Positions 10,731-21,406 of a stretch of 33,029 bases of DNA are shown one piece after another; position 1 is the stretch's first letter, and each line of letters begins with the position of its first letter. The stretch is from positions 1 through 33,029 of the IMG/VR virus record IMGVR_UViG_3300023301_002057. One strand, 5' to 3'. The notes beneath the pieces are model-generated. The model was not told the origin of the DNA. It saw nothing but the letters and a program-made list of their open reading frames with translations, and did not search any database. Made by a program: the position numbers and the translations under genes. Source of the stretch: a virus.

Positions 10731-11333
10731 TTATTGGTTAATAAGATTAAGCCTGTCTATCCACCCTCTAGTAAATGCCTCCTGACTACTGTCATTGTCA
10801 ATGATGTTCAAGTAGTGCCTTCCTTGCTGCACATTCAGTAGGTTATACAGGTGCCTGGTGTCATTTTGGTTCAGCTGGTTGATACGTCCTACAGTCAATA
10901 TGCCTATATACCCATCTACTTTCAGTTTTGAATCAGCATTCCCACGGCAAAGATAATTAAATCCTGTTTGTAGGAAAACCGCTGCCCTCCTGGTACCCAT
11001 ATTCACGCCTATGTCAAAAAGCTTGTCTTTAGTTTTCTGATCATTGAGCAATTGAAGGCTGTTTGCTTCCCAAAAGAATTCCAGATAAAAAACCTTGACT
11101 GCCTCATGCAAAATCCCAATCCTTTTTAGGTTGCGTGGAAAGTTCGATTCCTTTTTTGAATCATCAATGATTTTCCACCCATACCATTTTGGATGGTGTA
11201 CCCTCGCTATTCCCATATAGGTTTCACCACCTCTGTCAGCTGCATTGGCTCCCGTACCTGCATGGTAGCCACCTTCATGGCCCATCACTTTATCGTAAGC
11301 TATCTTAAAGTCAGTCATTTTAATTGTCTTCAA
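10731..11333 (-). CDS. endolysin, GH108-type N-acetylmuramidase
   Basis: 200 residues. The N-terminal domain carries HEGGY (Glu at residue 20), followed by DRGGETYMGIAR and FFWEANSLQLL, the pattern of glycosyl hydrolase family 108, where the Glu in EGGY is catalytic. The C-terminal half (KVDGYIGILTVGRINQL) matches the peptidoglycan-binding domain that usually follows it. No signal peptide is seen, so release would depend on the adjacent holin candidate. It overlaps that gene by 14 bp. It cleaves the glycan strands of peptidoglycan for host lysis at the end of infection. Confidence 0.92.
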   Translation of the reverse strand: MKTIKMTDFKIAYDKVMGHEGGYHAGTGANAADRGGETYMGIARVHHPKWYGWKIIDDSKKESNFPRNLKRIGILHEAVKVFYLEFFWEANSLQLLNDQKTKDKLFDIGVNMGTRRAAVFLQTGFNYLCRGNADSKLKVDGYIGILTVGRINQLNQNDTRHLYNLLNVQQGRHYLNIIDNDSSQEAFTRGWIDRLNLINQ

Positions 11334-11553
11334 AAGGTGGTTTAATCTTCTTTTTTTCCTCTATGCTTCGCTCCCACTTTTTAAGGTACTTCGTTATGAA
11401 AAAACCAATCAAAGCCCCAAACGCAGCAATGAGAGAGGAAGAAAGTAGGCGAACTAGCTCATTTATTAGTTGTTCACTTGCTGCGTAAGCAGTGATAAAG
11501 CTCCCTATAGAGGCAATGGCTGTGCCTACTTTCTGTCCTAAATCAACTTGCAT
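11320..11553 (-). CDS. holin-like protein
   Basis: 77 residues with two hydrophobic segments (about 10-27, VGTAIASIGSFITAYAA, and 36-55, RLLSSSLIAAFGALIGFFIT) and a strongly charged tail (KYLKKWERSIEEKKK). This is the usual layout of small two-segment phage holins. It lies just upstream of the endolysin and overlaps it. It probably permeabilises the inner membrane to release the endolysin. The family was not identified precisely; the call rests on topology and context. Confidence 0.75.
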   Translation of the reverse strand: MQVDLGQKVGTAIASIGSFITAYAASEQLINELVRLLSSSLIAAFGALIGFFITKYLKKWERSIEEKKKIKPPFEDN

Positions 11554-11614
11554 CTGTCTTATTGTTTAAGGTGAAAAATGAATATAAGGAAAGGCTCCCC
11601 CTTCCTTATATTGA

Positions 11615-12715
11615 CTATGCTGGTACGCCTTGGACAATAGCCACAACGCCAGCTGCCCTTCTTATTCTACCCCCTACACGTAGCAAGGCACTGTATACAT
11701 CACCCTGATAGGTGGCATCGTCCACGTTTTCAAAGAATTTCACTTCGCCCATGGCTTTTTCTACAGCATTCTTTTGCCAACACAATACCCCTGCATTGTG
11801 AGTAGCTGCACCAGCTGCACCAGGATCAACTACCACGGGGGTCGCTGCATTGGTAAACCTTAATACTTCTGCACGCTCCATTATATTGAACCCGTATAGC
11901 TTCATTAGGAAGCCTTCTTTGAGGTTCAATTCACCCCCATTAACACCGTCTCTTTTGATCAAATCAGGATCGTCTTGGAGTTGGCTAATCATCTCACTGT
12001 CAAACAGGGCATACCTGTCTTTTTTGGAAATCTTAGCTTTATTCATCAAGGAACCTGCTGCCTTCAGGTCACCTTTGACGAATGCAAATCGGTTCCCAGT
12101 GGCAGAGGGCAAATGAGACAGCACAGCTGTAGCATCAGCCCCTCCAGTGGTTCTAATAATTTGCCCCGTGACAGTTGTTCCATTCATCGTTTTGCTAAAC
12201 CAGTCTTTAAGAATCCAATTTCCGGAATCTTCATTAATTGCCCCTGAATGCTCTTCTATGGCTGATTGTCGCTTGTCATAAGAAAGCTCTACTTTGTCAG
12301 CATCTACAATATGTATTGGTTCAGTAGAATAAACATCTATGGCATACACGATATCACTATCTGCCCTTTGGGAGACTGTTAGGGGCCAATTAGTATTGTT
12401 TTTAATTACTGTTGGTTTATCTCCTATTACAGGGATGTGAACCACTTTGCCTTTGAGGACATATTCATCACCATTAAATGCATAGTTAAGGAATGGATTT
12501 TCTGAATAGAGATTCTCTATGAAGTCACTTTGCCACATTTCTACCTGCACGGCCATCGGCAATACCGCTTTCATTTCCTTTGGCATCACCATGCCAGCGG
12601 TGAACACTGTCCCTGCCACTGCATAGGCATTAAGGCCAATGGATTGACCTGCTACCCCCATAAATAGGGCTACTAACACATTAAAGAGGACTGCGCCCCA
12701 CTTGATATTTTTCAT
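11615..12715 (-). CDS. major capsid protein
   Basis: 366 residues. It follows the prohead protease/scaffold gene, the standard position for the major head protein (gpT of Mu). Features of HK97-fold capsid proteins include an early strand segment (FNGDEYVLKGKVVHIPVIGD), a long central alpha/beta domain and a C-terminal GG-R-RRAAGVVAI segment. The first 45 residues are unusually hydrophobic (NVLVALFMGVAG..., AYAVAGTVFTAGM) and might be a removed delta-like region or a membrane-associating start. The ATG at 12715 is kept because an A/T-rich leader precedes it; an internal Met near residue 42 or 44 is possible. Confidence 0.85.
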   Translation of the reverse strand: MKNIKWGAVLFNVLVALFMGVAGQSIGLNAYAVAGTVFTAGMVMPKEMKAVLPMAVQVEMWQSDFIENLYSENPFLNYAFNGDEYVLKGKVVHIPVIGDKPTVIKNNTNWPLTVSQRADSDIVYAIDVYSTEPIHIVDADKVELSYDKRQSAIEEHSGAINEDSGNWILKDWFSKTMNGTTVTGQIIRTTGGADATAVLSHLPSATGNRFAFVKGDLKAAGSLMNKAKISKKDRYALFDSEMISQLQDDPDLIKRDGVNGGELNLKEGFLMKLYGFNIMERAEVLRFTNAATPVVVDPGAAGAATHNAGVLCWQKNAVEKAMGEVKFFENVDDATYQGDVYSALLRVGGRIRRAAGVVAIVQGVPA

Positions 12716-14005: not shown

Positions 14006-14443
14006 ATGGCCAATCCTATCCCACTGAAAAAGCGCAAAATTCTGGCTGAATCTTACTTCTTCAACTTCTACGCACAGAAGGAAATAGCGGAATTGCTGGA
14101 CACCCCTGAAAACACCATTTCACGCTGGGTACAGGGTGGAGACTGGAAAAAAATCAGGGATCACAAGACAGTGACTAGGGACAAGCTGGTAAGCAACCTG
14201 CTGTCACAAGTCAACCAAATAGAAGAATCTGCCCGAAATGAAGGACGGCCAATGAACAGCAAGGAAACGGACAGCATCCTAAAACTTGCTATGGCCGTGG
14301 AGAAACTTGACAAGAAAATCAACCTGTCCATATACATACAGGTGTTCAAGGAATTCAATGATTTTCTTATCCGTGAAGACTTCGAATTGGCCAAACGCTT
14401 CATACCCTTCCAAAGTAATTTCATAAGGAACCACGCTGAATAA
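14006..14443 (+). CDS. terminase small subunit-like HTH protein
   Basis: 145 residues. A helix-turn-helix lies near residues 22-48 (AQKEIAELLDTPENTISRWV, then GGDWKKIRD), followed by a helical C-terminal half that likely oligomerises. This resembles small terminase proteins of Mu-like phages (gp27/DUF1804 type), which recognise DNA for headful packaging. It is the first gene of the rightward packaging operon, and its stop overlaps the large terminase start (TAATG). It starts 9 bases after a promoter-like element, with no Shine-Dalgarno sequence. Confidence 0.82.
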   Translation: MANPIPLKKRKILAESYFFNFYAQKEIAELLDTPENTISRWVQGGDWKKIRDHKTVTRDKLVSNLLSQVNQIEESARNEGRPMNSKETDSILKLAMAVEKLDKKINLSIYIQVFKEFNDFLIREDFELAKRFIPFQSNFIRNHAE

Positions 14444-16056
14444 TGAGACAGGTACACTTAACCACACAAGAAAAGCGAAGCCTTCAGGACTGGCAAGAAC
14501 ACTGCACTAGGGTAATGAATGCCACCCCAGCCATGGCCAATGAATCTGTAGGAGACAAAGAACTTCGTAAAAAGAAGGCCATGTCTGACTATGATTTTTT
14601 CGTTACCCAATACTTCCCACATTACGCAAAGTCAAAAAGTGCTGCTTTTCATATCAAATTTGCCAATAAGGTGAAGAACAGCAAGAACATCAGGGCGCAA
14701 TACAGGGTGTTCAGAGGCGGTGCCAAGTCGGTACATTCTGATATCATCATTCCTATGTGGTTGAAGATTCAGTCCGTAAGGGAGTATAACACCATGGTGC
14801 TGATAGGTGCCAATAATGATGCAGCGGACAACCTGCTTGGTGACCTTCAGGCCGAACTGCAATTCAATCAAAGGTATATCCATGATTTTGGTGAACAATA
14901 TCAAATGGGTACCTGGCAGGAAGGCAACTTCACTACCAAAGATGGCTGTACCCATTTTGCGCTGGGTATAGGGCAGAAGCCCCGTGGACTTAGAAAGGGA
15001 GCCTTCAGGCCTGACTTGATCATCATTGACGATGTGGATGATGATGAAATGGTACAGAACGAAAGCAGGGTGAATAAGCTGGTGGATTGGATAATACGGT
15101 CACTAGTACCCACGATGGATAAAGGCCAAGGAAGGGTAATTCAGGCCAATAACCTGATACATGAAAAATCAGTAACAGCCAAGCTTGCTGCCAAGTGGAT
15201 GGAATCCGAAACCAAGATGAAAGCCCTCCAGAAGAAGCTTAACAGAAAGCTAAAAGGAGCCGCTGCCATTGAGTACTTCATTATGGATATCCCTATCAGG
15301 GACATGCATGGGAATCCCACATGGCCTGAAAAGTACAGCCTTGATGATATCCTTCAGATCGAAATAGATGCAGGCTACGCCGCCTTTGAATCTGAATACA
15401 TGAACAATCCCATTACAGAGGGGAAAATCTTCCTTAAGGAATGGTGGCGTTTTGAGAAGCTTCCACCCGTGGGCAACGTCACCAACCTGATCGCATACCT
15501 CGATGGTGGATTCAAAAATACAGGCACCTCGGATTCCAAAGCCCTGGTATTGCTGGGACTGGTAGGCCGTACCTACAGGACCTACAAGGTTTATTGCGGT
15601 GCCGCCTCCCGTATGGAGATGGTAGAATGGCACTATGATCTATACCAGTGGCTGGAAGAACGCAACGCCAAAGCGGTATGGTACATGGAAGAAGTATTCT
15701 TGCTTGACTTGCTCTATGAAGACTTTGATGCCATGGCCATGGTAAAAGGCTTTCCAATACCGCTAATAGGTGATACCAGAAAGAAGCCAGACAAAGACCT
15801 TCGAATCAAGTCCTTACAGGGAATCTTTCAGCGGGGCAATAACATCTTCAACAAAGCTGAAGAAACCAACCCCCACATGCGCAACCTTATTACACAATTT
15901 GAAGCATTCGAGCCACCAAAGAAGACGAAGAAGGATGGCCCTGATGCGTACGAAGGAGCCGTTCACCTGCTCAATCAGGCTGTTTTTACTTCACAGCCCG
16001 CCATACTTGGCAGCCTAAAAGATACCCGTGAACAGCGGGAAGGGTGGAGAATGTAA
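14443..16056 (+). CDS. terminase large subunit (Mu gp28-like)
   Basis: 537 residues. The ATPase domain has a variant Walker A, FRGGAKS (about 90-96), and Walker B, LIIIDDVDDDE (about 192-202). A coupling-type segment follows (RVIQANNLIHEKS). The C-terminal nuclease domain contains IAYLDGGF (first acidic residue), EEVFLLDLLYEDF and GPDAYEGAVHLL (last acidic residue), in the RNase H-like order. It packages the genome into proheads and cuts by headful, in Mu-like phages with some host DNA attached. It is coupled to the small subunit by TAATG. Confidence 0.93.
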   Translation: MRQVHLTTQEKRSLQDWQEHCTRVMNATPAMANESVGDKELRKKKAMSDYDFFVTQYFPHYAKSKSAAFHIKFANKVKNSKNIRAQYRVFRGGAKSVHSDIIIPMWLKIQSVREYNTMVLIGANNDAADNLLGDLQAELQFNQRYIHDFGEQYQMGTWQEGNFTTKDGCTHFALGIGQKPRGLRKGAFRPDLIIIDDVDDDEMVQNESRVNKLVDWIIRSLVPTMDKGQGRVIQANNLIHEKSVTAKLAAKWMESETKMKALQKKLNRKLKGAAAIEYFIMDIPIRDMHGNPTWPEKYSLDDILQIEIDAGYAAFESEYMNNPITEGKIFLKEWWRFEKLPPVGNVTNLIAYLDGGFKNTGTSDSKALVLLGLVGRTYRTYKVYCGAASRMEMVEWHYDLYQWLEERNAKAVWYMEEVFLLDLLYEDFDAMAMVKGFPIPLIGDTRKKPDKDLRIKSLQGIFQRGNNIFNKAEETNPHMRNLITQFEAFEPPKKTKKDGPDAYEGAVHLLNQAVFTSQPAILGSLKDTREQREGWRM

Positions 16057-16095: not shown

Positions 16096-19000
16096 ATGAA
16101 CTATTATCTTTCAAACACCGGAAATGATGCCAATGATGGCACGTCTGAAGCCCTGGCATGGGCTACCCTTGCAAGGCTCCAAACCTTCCTATCTGGCAGT
16201 CCTGGATTAGAACCAGGTGATAGGGTCTATTTCCAAAAGGATGGAATTTGGTATGAGACCCTATTGATCCCTACCCAGAATGATGGAGCAGAAGGCAACA
16301 CCGTACAGATAAGCCCATACGGCACAGGTGATGCCCCTACCATTTCAGGGCTGAAAAACCTTACTGGATGGACAAACACAAGTGGTAATCTGTGGACTAA
16401 GACAGATGCCACATTGCCTGATTATATTAGTTTATTGTTACTAGACGGCATTATTAGGCCAAAGAATATCAGCACCCCGCTAAAAACTACTTCAGACGGC
16501 ACTACCACCACACTAGTAAGCACCAACCTACCTGATTTTAATTATAGCGGTGGTGAAGTCGAATTGGTAGTAGAGAAGAATGATTTCATACATGACAAGG
16601 CTTATATTTCAGGAATTGCAGGTAACACCCTTACCTTTGTAGCTAGTAGTAGCTACTCTACCAAGTCCCAAAAAAACTACCTGATCCAAAATTGTCTAGA
16701 AGCACTTACAACGCAAGGGGACTGGATGTATAGTCCCGGTACCAATACCGTCACCCTCTATTCTGAAGTCAATCCAAGTACACTATCTATACAAGTGAGT
16801 AGTGAAGAATACAACATTAACGGTGAAGCAAATGGCAGAAATGAATTGGATGAATTATTGTTTGAAGGCGCAAATTTGGAAGGGCTTAGAATGGTATCAT
16901 CACATAATAACGTTTTTGACGGCCTCACATTCAGGAACCAAGGGGCTACAGGCTTAGGTTTATGGACTTCTACCGATGTCATTGTTAGGAATTGCACCTT
17001 TGAAAAGATTCTTGATATAGCTATCAATCAAAAAAACGCTTCTAATTCTCTGATTGTAGAGGATTCTACCTTCATGGATATCGCCCACTTTTTTGGGGCT
17101 TGTACCAATAGTGACGGCAAGGGCTTTGCTATTTTTGGGTCAAGTCACAATTCTATTTTTAGGCGAAACACTTTCCAGAATGTTGGGTACATACCTATAA
17201 GGTTCTATGGAGACAATGCAGAAGTGTACCAAAATGTAATTGAAGGCTTTTGTACTATCAAGCATGACGGCGGGGCCATATATTGCTATGGCGGCGTCAA
17301 GGATTCATCCACCTTTGTCAATAGGAAGATTCACAACAATATTGTAAGCAATTTAGGCGTCAATAAGCTCCATGGAATTCACTCTTTCTATGTAGATGAT
17401 AATTCTGAAGACATTGAAACCACCTACAATGCTTTCATTCACAATGGCCGTTCCGGTTACTTCAATCACAATTCCAGTAATATCCTGTTCAATTACAATA
17501 TCATATACTCAGCGCTCTATGGCTCCCTATATGGTCACAATGCAGGAAAGGAGTTAATTAGGAACAATGAAGAAAAGTATAACACCAAGGTGCTTACAGG
17601 CAAAGGTCAACATGCTTACTTCCTTAATTCAGGCCTTAATGACTTGGCTCTTTTTGGTGACATTGATTTCAATACCATTATACTATGTGCAGGCGGTGAA
17701 ATGGTCGTCCCCACTGAAGTATACATTTCAGGACAAAGGGTATATAACAACCTTACCAAAGCGCAATGGCAGGCTTTAAGCTATGACCTTAATTCCACCT
17801 TCCTAAGCTTAGATATTCCAGAATTCACCATAGCCACTGAATTGGCAAACAGGTTTGCCAATTCAACCTTTGAAGCAAATGTGGATGGTGTGGGCATCTA
17901 CCATGCAGGCGGTACAGCTGTCACGGCCCTTGATAGTAGCTCAAAGATTACTGGCACGGGATCACTGAAAGCCAGTGTGACCGCTGAAAGCACCGCTACT
18001 ACACGGGTAGAACTTGGTTTTGCCAACATGGGAGCCATAGACCCGGCAAAGGTGTATGTACTTAGATTCAAAGCCCTGGCACCTTCGGGCCATCAGTCTT
18101 TAAACATCTACCTAAGGGAGAAGGATACGCCCTATAGTATGATTTCTACAGAAATACACACTGTAGCCACAGCCACAGTACAGGCGTTTGAATTCTTCCT
18201 ATATGACCTGAAAGAAGCTGATACATCGTCTTTAATGATAGACTTCCAAAGTCATCAAGGTGATCTGTATGTAGATGACTTTGAGTTCAAAGAGGTTACA
18301 GGGGTGTTAACAGACTATGAAGACCATATTAAGGTATTTACCAATCCCACAACCGCCCCCGCTACCACAGCTTTGGTTGGCACTTGGAAAACGCCCGCTG
18401 ATGTGTACCCAGGTGGTAACCTTACCCTACAGCCTTTTTCCAGTGCCGTACTGATCAAAGAAGGGGACGGTCCCAACCCAAATACATTTGATGCTACTCT
18501 ATTAATTCAGGGTCAAGGTACAGCTGTCAACTTAACCGGTCCCGGTCCATTCTCTGAAGGCACAGTAGTTAATCTTCTGGCAACCCCATTATCAGGCTAT
18601 TCCTTCGTGGAATGGAAAAGAGGTACTGAAACCTACAATACAAGTGCTAATATTAATGTTGTCATGACCGAAGACATTGAATTGGTAGCGGTGTTCTCAC
18701 TGGTAATAGAAATGAACATTACCGTTCGGTTCCTGATCCCGTCAGATTATCACCCATATATCCGTAAGGAGATCAAAGAGGACATTTTGCTAAAGCAAAC
18801 CGATGTGATACAGAAAGTAGAATTTGCCGCTGAAGCAGAAATAGCTTCTTACCTATCTAGTAGGTTTGATGTGGCCAAAATCTTCACTCCAATTTCTGAC
18901 TATGAAAGCACCCGCCTGGTAAAGGCTGGTGCCTTCATACATGAATCGGACAAGATTTGGCGGTCACTGGTAGACCAAACAGGTATAAGACCTTCAGAAA

Positions 19001-19272
19001 GTGCTACCAGTGACACCCCTACTTTTGTAGTGGATGATCCAAGGAACCCTATTATTGTTTTGCGCATGGTGTACATTACGCTCTACCACGCCCACAAAGC
19101 TTTGCCAGGCTCCCAGATTCCAAAACTTAGAATTGATGACTACGACATATCTATCAGGTGGCTTGAAAAAGTGGCAGGCGGCTTACTCAATCCCTTACTC
19201 CCTGTAGCTGAAGAAGGGGATAATTTCATGGTAGCTTTCGGCTCTGAAGAGCGCAGGGTAGTCAGATACTGA
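16096..19272 (+). CDS. beta-helix tail spike fused to gp36-like head connector
   Basis: 1058 residues in one uninterrupted frame. Residues 1-110 (YYLSNTGNDANDGTSEALAW, GDRVYFQKDGIWYE) and on to about 470 form a right-handed parallel beta-helix of the pectate-lyase/spike kind, with many NN, GN and SHN turns. About 585-735 resembles a carbohydrate-binding jelly roll (FEANVDGVGIYHAGG to DLYVDDFEFKEV). About 797-868 is an InlB-like repeat (GQGTAVNLTG, SGYSFVEWKRG). From 873 it changes to a gp36/DUF1320-like neck protein (AEIASYLSSRF, IVLRMVYITLYH, SIRWLEKVAGG). Spike and connector in one chain, between terminase and portal genes, is very odd. An internal ATG could separate them. Confidence 0.85.
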   Translation: MNYYLSNTGNDANDGTSEALAWATLARLQTFLSGSPGLEPGDRVYFQKDGIWYETLLIPTQNDGAEGNTVQISPYGTGDAPTISGLKNLTGWTNTSGNLWTKTDATLPDYISLLLLDGIIRPKNISTPLKTTSDGTTTTLVSTNLPDFNYSGGEVELVVEKNDFIHDKAYISGIAGNTLTFVASSSYSTKSQKNYLIQNCLEALTTQGDWMYSPGTNTVTLYSEVNPSTLSIQVSSEEYNINGEANGRNELDELLFEGANLEGLRMVSSHNNVFDGLTFRNQGATGLGLWTSTDVIVRNCTFEKILDIAINQKNASNSLIVEDSTFMDIAHFFGACTNSDGKGFAIFGSSHNSIFRRNTFQNVGYIPIRFYGDNAEVYQNVIEGFCTIKHDGGAIYCYGGVKDSSTFVNRKIHNNIVSNLGVNKLHGIHSFYVDDNSEDIETTYNAFIHNGRSGYFNHNSSNILFNYNIIYSALYGSLYGHNAGKELIRNNEEKYNTKVLTGKGQHAYFLNSGLNDLALFGDIDFNTIILCAGGEMVVPTEVYISGQRVYNNLTKAQWQALSYDLNSTFLSLDIPEFTIATELANRFANSTFEANVDGVGIYHAGGTAVTALDSSSKITGTGSLKASVTAESTATTRVELGFANMGAIDPAKVYVLRFKALAPSGHQSLNIYLREKDTPYSMISTEIHTVATATVQAFEFFLYDLKEADTSSLMIDFQSHQGDLYVDDFEFKEVTGVLTDYEDHIKVFTNPTTAPATTALVGTWKTPADVYPGGNLTLQPFSSAVLIKEGDGPNPNTFDATLLIQGQGTAVNLTGPGPFSEGTVVNLLATPLSGYSFVEWKRGTETYNTSANINVVMTEDIELVAVFSLVIEMNITVRFLIPSDYHPYIRKEIKEDILLKQTDVIQKVEFAAEAEIASYLSSRFDVAKIFTPISDYESTRLVKAGAFIHESDKIWRSLVDQTGIRPSESATSDTPTFVVDDPRNPIIVLRMVYITLYHAHKALPGSQIPKLRIDDYDISIRWLEKVAGGLLNPLLPVAEEGDNFMVAFGSEERRVVRY
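18712..19272 (+). CDS. gp36-like head-tail connector, possible separate product
   Basis: The in-frame ATG at 18712 (codon 873 of the fused gene) would start a 186-residue protein covering just the connector domain: helical AEAEIASYLSSRFDVAKIF, then NPIIVLRMVYITLYHAHKA and ISIRWLEKVAGGLL, the pattern of DUF1320/Mu gp36 neck proteins. Just before the ATG the sequence GTAATAGAAATG contains TAA TAG in another frame, as expected if two genes had been joined by a small indel upstream. Whether it is made alone or only as part of the fusion is unknown. Confidence 0.45.
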   Translation: MNITVRFLIPSDYHPYIRKEIKEDILLKQTDVIQKVEFAAEAEIASYLSSRFDVAKIFTPISDYESTRLVKAGAFIHESDKIWRSLVDQTGIRPSESATSDTPTFVVDDPRNPIIVLRMVYITLYHAHKALPGSQIPKLRIDDYDISIRWLEKVAGGLLNPLLPVAEEGDNFMVAFGSEERRVVRY

Positions 19273-19355: not shown

Positions 19356-20606
19356 ATGGACAAGGCAGGCTTTAGAAACGTTCGATTGAAAGACCCCTCT
19401 TTGCACGAAATAACAATAGTCGATCAGAAGATCACTATTGCACAAATAAACAGAGGGCCGGCAGACATTGGCAATTACAGGCGTTCGATTAATAGTGCCG
19501 AAAGCCTACGCAACCCAAACCGGAAGCTTTACTATGAACTAATCGAGAATGTGAAGACCGATGGTATATTAGAATCTATCATGGGCAAAAGGATAAGGGC
19601 AGTTACCACCACGCCTATAAGTCTGGAAGGTACAGACGATGAAAAGACCATAGGTCTATTCCAAGCCCCTTGGATGTCTGACTTATTGACCTTCATGATG
19701 GGTAAAATGTTTTGGGGTCATAGCCTGGTGGAGCCTGTTTTTAATGAAGCAGCGTTCAAAGACCCTGAACTAGAGCAACTGTTTAAAATCAAGCTGGTGC
19801 CAAGGAAGAACGTAAGCCCAGAATTTGGGGTGATCACAGCCAATGCCAATACTTTTTCTAACCAGGGGCTACCCTTTAGGGATGAGCCTTTTGCTGATTA
19901 CTTGTTTGAGTTTGGAGGAGAAAGGGACTTAGGCCTTTTCATGAACCTTATACCTTATGTACTGTACAAAAGAAACAATTGGGCAGACTTTGCCCAATAC
20001 AATGAGCTTTTTGGGATGCCGCTTAGAACGTATGAATATGACCCACACCAGCCCGACACCAGAAAGCAGGTAGAGGCACAAGCCAAAGCAGCCGGGGCCG
20101 CTCCTTATGTGATCGTGCCAAAGGGTACCGCTGTCACCTATCACAATGCAGGTACTTCAGCAGGCAATGGAGGGTACAAGGAATTCAACAGCATCATGAA
20201 TGAAGAAATGATTATCACCGTCTTGGGCCAAACATTAACCACTGGCACCGATGGGAAAGGCTCCTATGCTTTAGGTGAAGTTCACCAAGACGTGGAAAAA
20301 TCTATTAACCTTGAAGACAAGCTTTGGTGTGAATACCAATTGAACTGGAACATAAAACCCAAGCTGATTAATACTTTTGGGCTTACCCAGCTTAGAGGAA
20401 CCAAATTCAAATTTGATGACACCATCAAATTAACCCCACAGCAAAAAATAGATGTGTTTGAAAAACTTAGCCTGATTACCCCTATTGATCAGCAATACCT
20501 TAGGGATGAATTCAACCTCCCTGATCCTGATGAAGATTCAATAGCCATATTCAGCCAAGGAAAGGCCACAGCTCCACCACCAGTGCCGGGAAAGACATTG
20601 CCCTAA
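19356..20606 (+). CDS. portal protein (Mu gp29-like, DUF935)
   Basis: 416 residues. The N-terminal region RNPNRKLYYELIENVKTDG, ILESIMGKRIRAV, and then FMMGKMFWGHSLVEPVF and AQYNELFGMPLRTYEYDP follow the DUF935 portal family of Mu-like phages. The portal forms the dodecameric ring at the head vertex through which DNA is packed. It is preceded by an 83-base gap after the spike gene and coupled downstream to the F-like gene by TAATG. The C-terminus is a Pro/Ala-rich tail (KATAPPPVPGKTLP). Confidence 0.93.
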   Translation: MDKAGFRNVRLKDPSLHEITIVDQKITIAQINRGPADIGNYRRSINSAESLRNPNRKLYYELIENVKTDGILESIMGKRIRAVTTTPISLEGTDDEKTIGLFQAPWMSDLLTFMMGKMFWGHSLVEPVFNEAAFKDPELEQLFKIKLVPRKNVSPEFGVITANANTFSNQGLPFRDEPFADYLFEFGGERDLGLFMNLIPYVLYKRNNWADFAQYNELFGMPLRTYEYDPHQPDTRKQVEAQAKAAGAAPYVIVPKGTAVTYHNAGTSAGNGGYKEFNSIMNEEMIITVLGQTLTTGTDGKGSYALGEVHQDVEKSINLEDKLWCEYQLNWNIKPKLINTFGLTQLRGTKFKFDDTIKLTPQQKIDVFEKLSLITPIDQQYLRDEFNLPDPDEDSIAIFSQGKATAPPPVPGKTLP

Positions 20607-21406
20607 TGATGTCAGAATACTGGGGTGAATTGCCAGCACCAAAGCAGGCAGTTACCCTCAGTTACCAAGACGACATTAGGGCTGAAGTAGAAAGAATCAT
20701 AATTGCCATCCATGCTGGTACCATGACAAAGAAGCAGGTACCAGCCACATTGGTAGACCTTGTGTATAAGGAACTGGACAAGGCTTTAGTTACTGGCTAT
20801 GGCACATTGAAAAGAAAGATAGATGCAAAAATGATCACAGCACTAAAGAACAATGTGTTTTCATTCAGTTCTGCCAAAGAATTCCAATTTATACAAGAGG
20901 CTTTTGGAAGCCTTACCCTACCAGGGGGGAAGGTCAAGCCATTTGCCAAATTTCGTGATGAAGTCCTAAAGGTTCATACTAACTATAATGTGAATTGGCT
21001 ACAGAGTGAATACCAGGCTACAACTGCCAATGCACAAATAGCAAGTAAATGGCAGGATATACAGGCCAATAAGTCTGCAAGTCCTTTGCTGAAGTTCCGG
21101 GCGGTGCTGGATGGCAGATCACGGCATAAGAAATACAATGGTATAGTCAGGCCTGTAGAAGACCCGATTTGGGATTGGTTAATGCCTATCCTTGATTGGG
21201 GCTGTAGGTGTACGGTCAATGCTGTATCTGTTGGCGAACTGACAGCACCGGACAAGCTACCAAACAACAGGGACATACGCCCGGCCTTTAGGTTCAATCC
21301 TGGCAAAGAAAAAATGGTCTTCAGTGAAAGCCATCCTTATTTCAAAGTGGGTGGTAGTGCCGTGAAGGACATGCAAAAGAATTGGGGCTTAAAAAGACCT
21401 GAATAA
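20606..21406 (+). CDS. Mu F-like minor head protein
   Basis: 266 residues. The central and C-terminal region has the phage head morphogenesis (SPP1 gp7/Mu F) signature: RAVLDGRSRHKKYNG, then WDWLMPILDWGCRCTV with the conserved WGCRC near residue 200. This is shorter than Mu gpF, with a helical N-terminal part. It is a few-copy head protein associated with the portal and prohead assembly. It is coupled on both sides by TAATG, in the order portal, F, G as in Mu. Confidence 0.9.
   Translation: MMSEYWGELPAPKQAVTLSYQDDIRAEVERIIIAIHAGTMTKKQVPATLVDLVYKELDKALVTGYGTLKRKIDAKMITALKNNVFSFSSAKEFQFIQEAFGSLTLPGGKVKPFAKFRDEVLKVHTNYNVNWLQSEYQATTANAQIASKWQDIQANKSASPLLKFRAVLDGRSRHKKYNGIVRPVEDPIWDWLMPILDWGCRCTVNAVSVGELTAPDKLPNNRDIRPAFRFNPGKEKMVFSESHPYFKVGGSAVKDMQKNWGLKRPE

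Follow-up and report, generated by a model that had tools for sequence, protein, structure and literature searches.

A phage gene joining a putative carbohydrate-active spike to a gp36/DUF1320-like head-tail adaptor in a single conserved chain

The 33-kb virus contig IMGVR_UViG_3300023301_002057 (the window, 33,029 nucleotides) contains an uninterrupted frame of 1058 codons on the plus strand, at 16096-19272, in which a spike-like protein is continued into a gp36/DUF1320-like adaptor of the head-tail neck. It was evident that the whole fusion is under strong purifying selection and is shared with a second phage. Our favoured interpretation, held with somewhat better than even confidence, is that this gene supplies the phage with its only head-tail adaptor and ties each adaptor chain for good to a carbohydrate-active spike, displayed as a collar at the neck. 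The anatomy claimed in an earlier note on this DNA, namely a single frame running from a beta-helix through a carbohydrate-binding-like region and an InlB-like repeat into a gp36/DUF1320 domain, was recovered by Pfam, PHROG, Foldseek and AlphaFold2 (AF2) analyses. Coordinates of all features are collected in Table 1.

A homologue of 1058 aa was found on a separate contig, IMGVR_2506381023_000003 (L003), with 77% identity and zero gaps. Between the two genes, nonsynonymous divergence (dN) was 0.158 and synonymous divergence (dS) was 2.5, which is near saturation, and the resulting ratio of about 0.06 was alike over the spike, the repeat and the adaptor. The two phages are collinear, with proteins 46-93% identical, and the exception among the compared genes is a propeller-like gene at 1207-2244. 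The recent join of two genes suggested earlier is ruled out by a fusion common to L003 at this identity, with near-saturated synonymous sites and so low a dN/dS.

The out-of-frame TAA and TAG before the ATG at 18712 would suit an error of sequencing or assembly, or two genes read through by chance. However, L003 carries the same frame without an indel and under the same constraint, and a further contig, IMGVR_3300000525_001176, is identical in frame up to residue 1048, where that contig ends; it may derive from the same virus. The frame-splitting error that the earlier note had named as a possible refutation was thus not seen, and an artefact, ruled out in practice by these two contigs, is given almost no credence.

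For comparison, about 80 viral and 19 genome loci with gp36 were gathered. In every one of them except the window/L003 lineage gp36 is a stand-alone gene, as it is in 13 further matches within 395 Bacteroidota genomes; across these approximately 100 loci and 395 genomes, no other long gp36 fusion was found outside the lineage. The homologue search proposed in the earlier note separates unfused relatives, which keep gp36 as a gene of its own, from L003, which keeps the fusion.

The fusion gene starts 40 bp past the stop codon of the large terminase gene, and the portal gene begins 84 bp after it. Its location between terminase and portal, previously regarded as unusual for a spike, was correctly reported but is no oddity, since the order terminase-gp36-portal is the rule in related phages. 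As the fusion occupies the usual place of gp36, the spike is the newcomer. Nearly all aligned stand-alone gp36 proteins begin with 'M(x)F/Y L..DY', which aligns with residues 877-880, and the fused domain reads 'RFLIPSDY' at this point; the native start codon has therefore been lost in both lineages. Foreign base composition was considered as a sign of recent import and was uninformative: GC content at third codon positions was 0.41 in the helix part against 0.53-0.56 in the terminase genes, but the helix value is near those of the Mu F-like (MuF) gene (0.44) and of the genome as a whole (GC 0.42).

Profile and structure comparisons identify the C-terminal domain as a genuine gp36/DUF1320 neck adaptor. 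Residues 873-1058 alone matched the Gp36 family PF07030 at 4e-5 with 24.2 bits, which is borderline against the cut-off of 24.7 bits. PHROG 195 ('head-tail adaptor') was matched at 2.9e-8. PF07030 was matched by all 68 of the 68 aligned relatives. The C-terminal end, '..GSE(T)RR..RY', is common to the fused proteins and close stand-alone gp36.

The AF2 model of residues 873-1058 had a mean predicted local distance difference test (pLDDT) score of 89.4 and a predicted template modelling score (pTM) of 0.82. Its top PDB match was the Mu neck protein gpJ/gp36 in 9knu (probability 1.00, TMt 0.60), at an E-value of only 0.016, modest because a module of about 52 residues is inserted in the adaptor. 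The top viral match, in BFVD, was a DUF1320 protein of a Flavobacterium phage (1.1e-13, TM 0.78). Structure prediction and profile searches, either of which could have contradicted the DUF1320 assignment made in the earlier note, thus both upheld it, through 9knu, DUF1320 and PHROG 195. A second gp36 copy is absent from both fused genomes, the window and L003, which leaves the fusion protein as the necessary source of the adaptor.

The inserted module resembles carbohydrate-binding module (CBM) families 5/12. In Foldseek comparisons it was superposed on 2d49 with a root-mean-square deviation (rmsd) of 1.6 (TMt 0.68) and on 4hmc with an rmsd of 1.2. Among the other 67 gp36 sequences aligned, 22 carry an insert of 46-98 aa at the same place, and Pfam recognised CBM_5_12 in three of 68 members, reaching 2.8e-4. 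That about one third of related adaptors contain a chitin-binding-type fold suggests a wider and so far overlooked role for the neck of Bacteroidota phages as a display platform.

Examples of insert-bearing gp36 are the proteins of loci L011, L017, L019, L025 and L026; some inserts reach 90-98 aa, roughly double the usual length, and may be duplicated modules. Unusually long proteins of the gp36 family (280-340 aa), with large internal insertions, were also observed at L055, L057, L065, L068, L077, L082 and L083.

The spike half comprises three recognisable parts. Pfam placed Beta_helix PF13229 at residues 245-382 (6.7e-12), and strands were predicted at residues 250-390 in the full-length AF2 model. 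For the second part, described earlier as a carbohydrate-binding-like region, Foldseek with the full model returned CBM4, CBM61 and CBM16 structures, and CBM_4_9 was found at the corresponding place in the cellular relative L120; this jelly-roll domain, the limits of which were taken from predicted strands, probably binds carbohydrate. The third part, the InlB B-repeat, is a probable spacer from spike to adaptor.

Four polar residues of the helix (K389, D391, D434 and D435) are kept in no fewer than 90% of the 25 cellular rows compared and are the same in the two phage proteins. Such conservation hints at, and is compatible with, a retained active site. Confidence in the full-length model was low apart from the adaptor and some stretches of helix and jelly roll, and nothing here is argued from its overall shape.

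Among the spike matches, some were set aside. The toxin entries in the Foldseek list of the full model each covered about 105-150 columns, the size of the jelly roll only. The NCBIfam match to lacto-N-biosidase concerned the N-terminal motif only and was far under the cut-off, and the ficolin matches from the PDB sequence search were weak and irrelevant.

Beyond its own lineage, the spike has its relatives in cells rather than in phages. No clear relative was found in the annotated phage records of the collection searched, where the best match had an E-value of 5e-3 across 79 residues, and among viral contigs the spike matched only its own lineage plus one stretch of 70 residues. Cytophagales, in contrast, carry relatives that align end to end with residues 2-790, including the CBM4-like part, at 25-30% identity (2e-64 to 7.6e-69 for the best); these were found in dozens of the 390 genomes sampled. 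Descent of the N-terminal part from a phage tailspike, as which it was previously taken, is therefore not supported; it resembles secreted Cytophagales beta-helix proteins.

In nearly all cellular relatives inspected, a hydrophobic leader immediately precedes 'TYYVSxxGNDxNDGRS'. The phage spike opens at the motif 'NYYLSNTGNDANDG', the point that follows the signal peptide in the cellular relatives, and so starts at the mature N-terminus without a signal peptide. Likewise, a sorting domain of the type IX secretion system (T9SS; Por_Secre_tail, TIGR04183/PF18962) was present in four of five profiled cellular relatives, one of these matches falling slightly under the cut-off. The cellular proteins are thus made with a signal peptide and, as a rule, end in a tail of the T9SS or another type, whereas the phage copy has neither: TIGR04183 found no match in the fusion protein, and InlB plus gp36 stand in place of the secretion tail.

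In a maximum-likelihood tree the two phage proteins fell outside the cellular proteins sampled, at the end of a long branch of 2.2. The spike may have passed from host to phage; such a capture is argued from the breadth of the cellular family and not from nesting in the tree. The likeness to T9SS cargo suggests a possible route by which a phage could be armed with a surface enzyme of host type, in which both secretion signals are dropped and the rest is grafted onto a ring protein of the virion.

How such a chain would work can be outlined from the related necks. The gp36 domain would assemble beneath the portal as the adaptor ring, which has 12 copies in Mu, and the portal clip would grip its C-terminal arm; because the C-terminus of the adaptor would be buried in the portal, an appendage would be tolerated at the N-terminus only, where the spike is indeed placed. 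The InlB repeat would space the spike away from the ring, so that the CBM4-like domain and the beta-helix stand out from the neck as a ring of spikes, which may bind, and perhaps cut, polysaccharide of the host surface, either ahead of the tail tip or together with it. We infer one chain in virions, in 12 copies, displayed outward and engaged in sugar binding or cleavage. Spikes fixed at the neck, as the earlier note suggested, are the most likely reading, and the appendages with which the virus grips surfaces are probably borne by the neck ring itself. A stronger version, on which our judgement is evenly divided, is an essential connector ring built wholly of enzyme-bearing chains, in which every subunit has a beta-helix/CBM arm akin to a secreted, polysaccharide-active host protein; the phage would then always wear up to 12 carbohydrate-active spikes round its neck and need no separate attachment protein.

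Several points weigh against this interpretation. Twelve arms of about 95 kDa round one ring might crowd or block the joining of the tail; beyond the adaptor the full-length prediction is of poor quality, with a mean pLDDT of 53; the tree sets the phage pair on a long branch outside the cellular family and gives no direction to the transfer between host and phage; and the adaptor could be freed by cleavage or by internal initiation at the conserved ATG of codon 857.

In that last case the ring might be made up of free gp36 or might mix a few spiked subunits with many plain ones, and such a mixture would relieve the crowding. The window has an in-frame ATG at codon 873 and both lineages have one at codon 857, and proteolysis has a parallel in the portal of Mu, which is thought to be trimmed by a phage protease (PMC11915804). 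However, the ATG at 18712, proposed earlier as an internal start, exists in the window but is not conserved, being GTA in L003, where no in-frame start codon occurs between codons 857 and 908. The methionine of codon 857 lies inside the InlB repeat and may be kept for structure, the start methionine of native gp36 is gone from both lineages, and selection could have kept two genes for separate products, as at all other loci examined. Release of the adaptor is consequently considered unlikely, though it is the most serious of the alternatives weighed here.

A collar without any host-binding role, serving as a passive or structural element (a stabiliser of capsid or neck, or a spacing ring), was judged still less likely. 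It agrees with the report that the neck passage structure of TP901-1 is non-essential (PMC6669499) and with the failure of the neck-fibre CBM from phage A-1(L) to bind the host of that phage (PMC10966104). Against it, the same chain holds CBM4-like and CBM5/12-like folds, the conserved polar residues are retained in the helix, and strong purifying selection extends over the whole spike.

Table 1. Positions of the fusion gene, its parts and neighbouring genes in the window.
Feature	Position	Strand	Basis or remark
Whole fusion gene, 1058 aa, spike + gp36-like adaptor	16096..19272	+	Open frame; full length kept in L003; dN/dS ~0.06
N-terminal cap + right-handed beta-helix, residues 1-580	16096..17835	+	PF13229; cellular relatives over residues 2-790; no signal peptide
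CBM4-like jelly roll, residues ~590-735	17863..18300	+	Foldseek CBM4/CBM61/CBM16; CBM_4_9 in L120
InlB B-repeat, residues 808-868	18517..18699	+	PF18998 8.6e-11; 4.5e-10 in L003
ATG, codon 857, in InlB repeat; possible, unsupported internal start	18664..18666	+	Conserved in L003 (comparison with L003)
ATG, codon 873; internal start proposed earlier	18712..18714	+	GTA in L003
gp36/DUF1320-like head-tail adaptor, residues 877-1058	18724..19272	+	PF07030; PHROG 195; AF2 + Foldseek to Mu neck 9knu/9khx; single copy
CBM5/12 (chitin-binding) fold inside adaptor, residues 931-982	18886..19041	+	Foldseek 2d49, 4hmc
Terminase large subunit	14443..16056	+	PHROG 38, 5e-63
Mu-type portal (gp29-like; Portal_Mu), downstream partner of adaptor	19356..20606	+	PF06074 3.4e-61
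Mu F-like head protein (MuF)	20606..21406	+	PF04233 8.8e-8

The phage of the window is a transposable phage of Bacteroidota-type bacteria, its transposable nature being indicated by a PHROG match for DNA transposition (MuB-type). The propeller-like gene mentioned above is located on the minus strand at the tail end of the genome and encodes a 345-aa repeat protein (DUF6923/DUF5074). Because the L003 contig, collinear elsewhere, lacks a match to it, this gene is a candidate moron or may encode a host-specific tail tip.

Other arrangements were noted in the head clusters of related phages. Portal and MuF, separate genes in the window, form one gene (685-719 aa) in L009 (8639-10696) and L010 (8708-10867). 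In L009, an unfused close relative with a gp36 54% identical, this portal-MuF gene is directly followed by a gene for a collagen-like fibre with an SO2946-like C-terminal domain (10743-11966), and such a fibre gene also lies inside the head cluster of L008 (4720-5958). Display of host-binding modules at the head-neck region may be a habit of the group to which the window phage belongs.

In comparison with known systems, the closest counterparts of the adaptor are gp36/gpJ of Mu (PF07030, 9knu/9khx) and gp41 of JBD30. Mu gp36 forms a dodecamer with its C-terminal arm inserted into the portal clip (PMC11915804), and the JBD30 adaptor acts likewise (PMC11445458). The protein of the window shares with them the fold, the portal-adjacent gene order and the C-terminal end, and is likewise the only adaptor in its genome. 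Those adaptors, however, are plain proteins of about 140-190 aa, whereas the one described here has an 876-aa N-terminal spike and the CBM5/12-like insert.

Typical beta-helix tailspikes are attached to the tail or baseplate by an N-terminal domain. The spike of the window shares with them a right-handed beta-helix and a presumed polysaccharide target, but its gene lies in the head cluster, lacks an N-terminal anchor domain and has a neck-adaptor anchor at the C-terminus.

Neck-mounted carbohydrate-binding appendages, some with a beta-helix C-terminal domain, are known from lactococcal phages (PMC6669499). The neck passage structure of the 936 phages and TP901-1 resembles the present protein as a large carbohydrate-binding appendage of the neck, a place that for the window protein is deduced from the adaptor domain. 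It differs in being a separate protein on a BppU-like N-terminal ring, in contrast to the covalent, C-terminal anchor in the window, and neither Pfam nor PHROG matched a BppU-like collar domain at the N-terminus of the fusion protein. The neck fibres of cyanophage A-1(L) and the fibritin whiskers of T4 are also rooted at the neck ring (PMC10966104), but they are separate proteins of other folds docked on it, not fusions. Tail tubular protein A of KP32, a ring-forming connector/tail protein, has reported polysaccharide activity (PMC5440376); KP32 is a podophage, however, and the activity belongs to the ring protein itself, with no fused beta-helix spike.

No description of a DUF1320 spike fusion was found in a literature search of open-licence papers. 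Known neck appendages are separate proteins docked on the connector; what is new here is the union of connector and appendage in one conserved chain, and because they are one chain, the ring would set how many spikes there are and where they sit.

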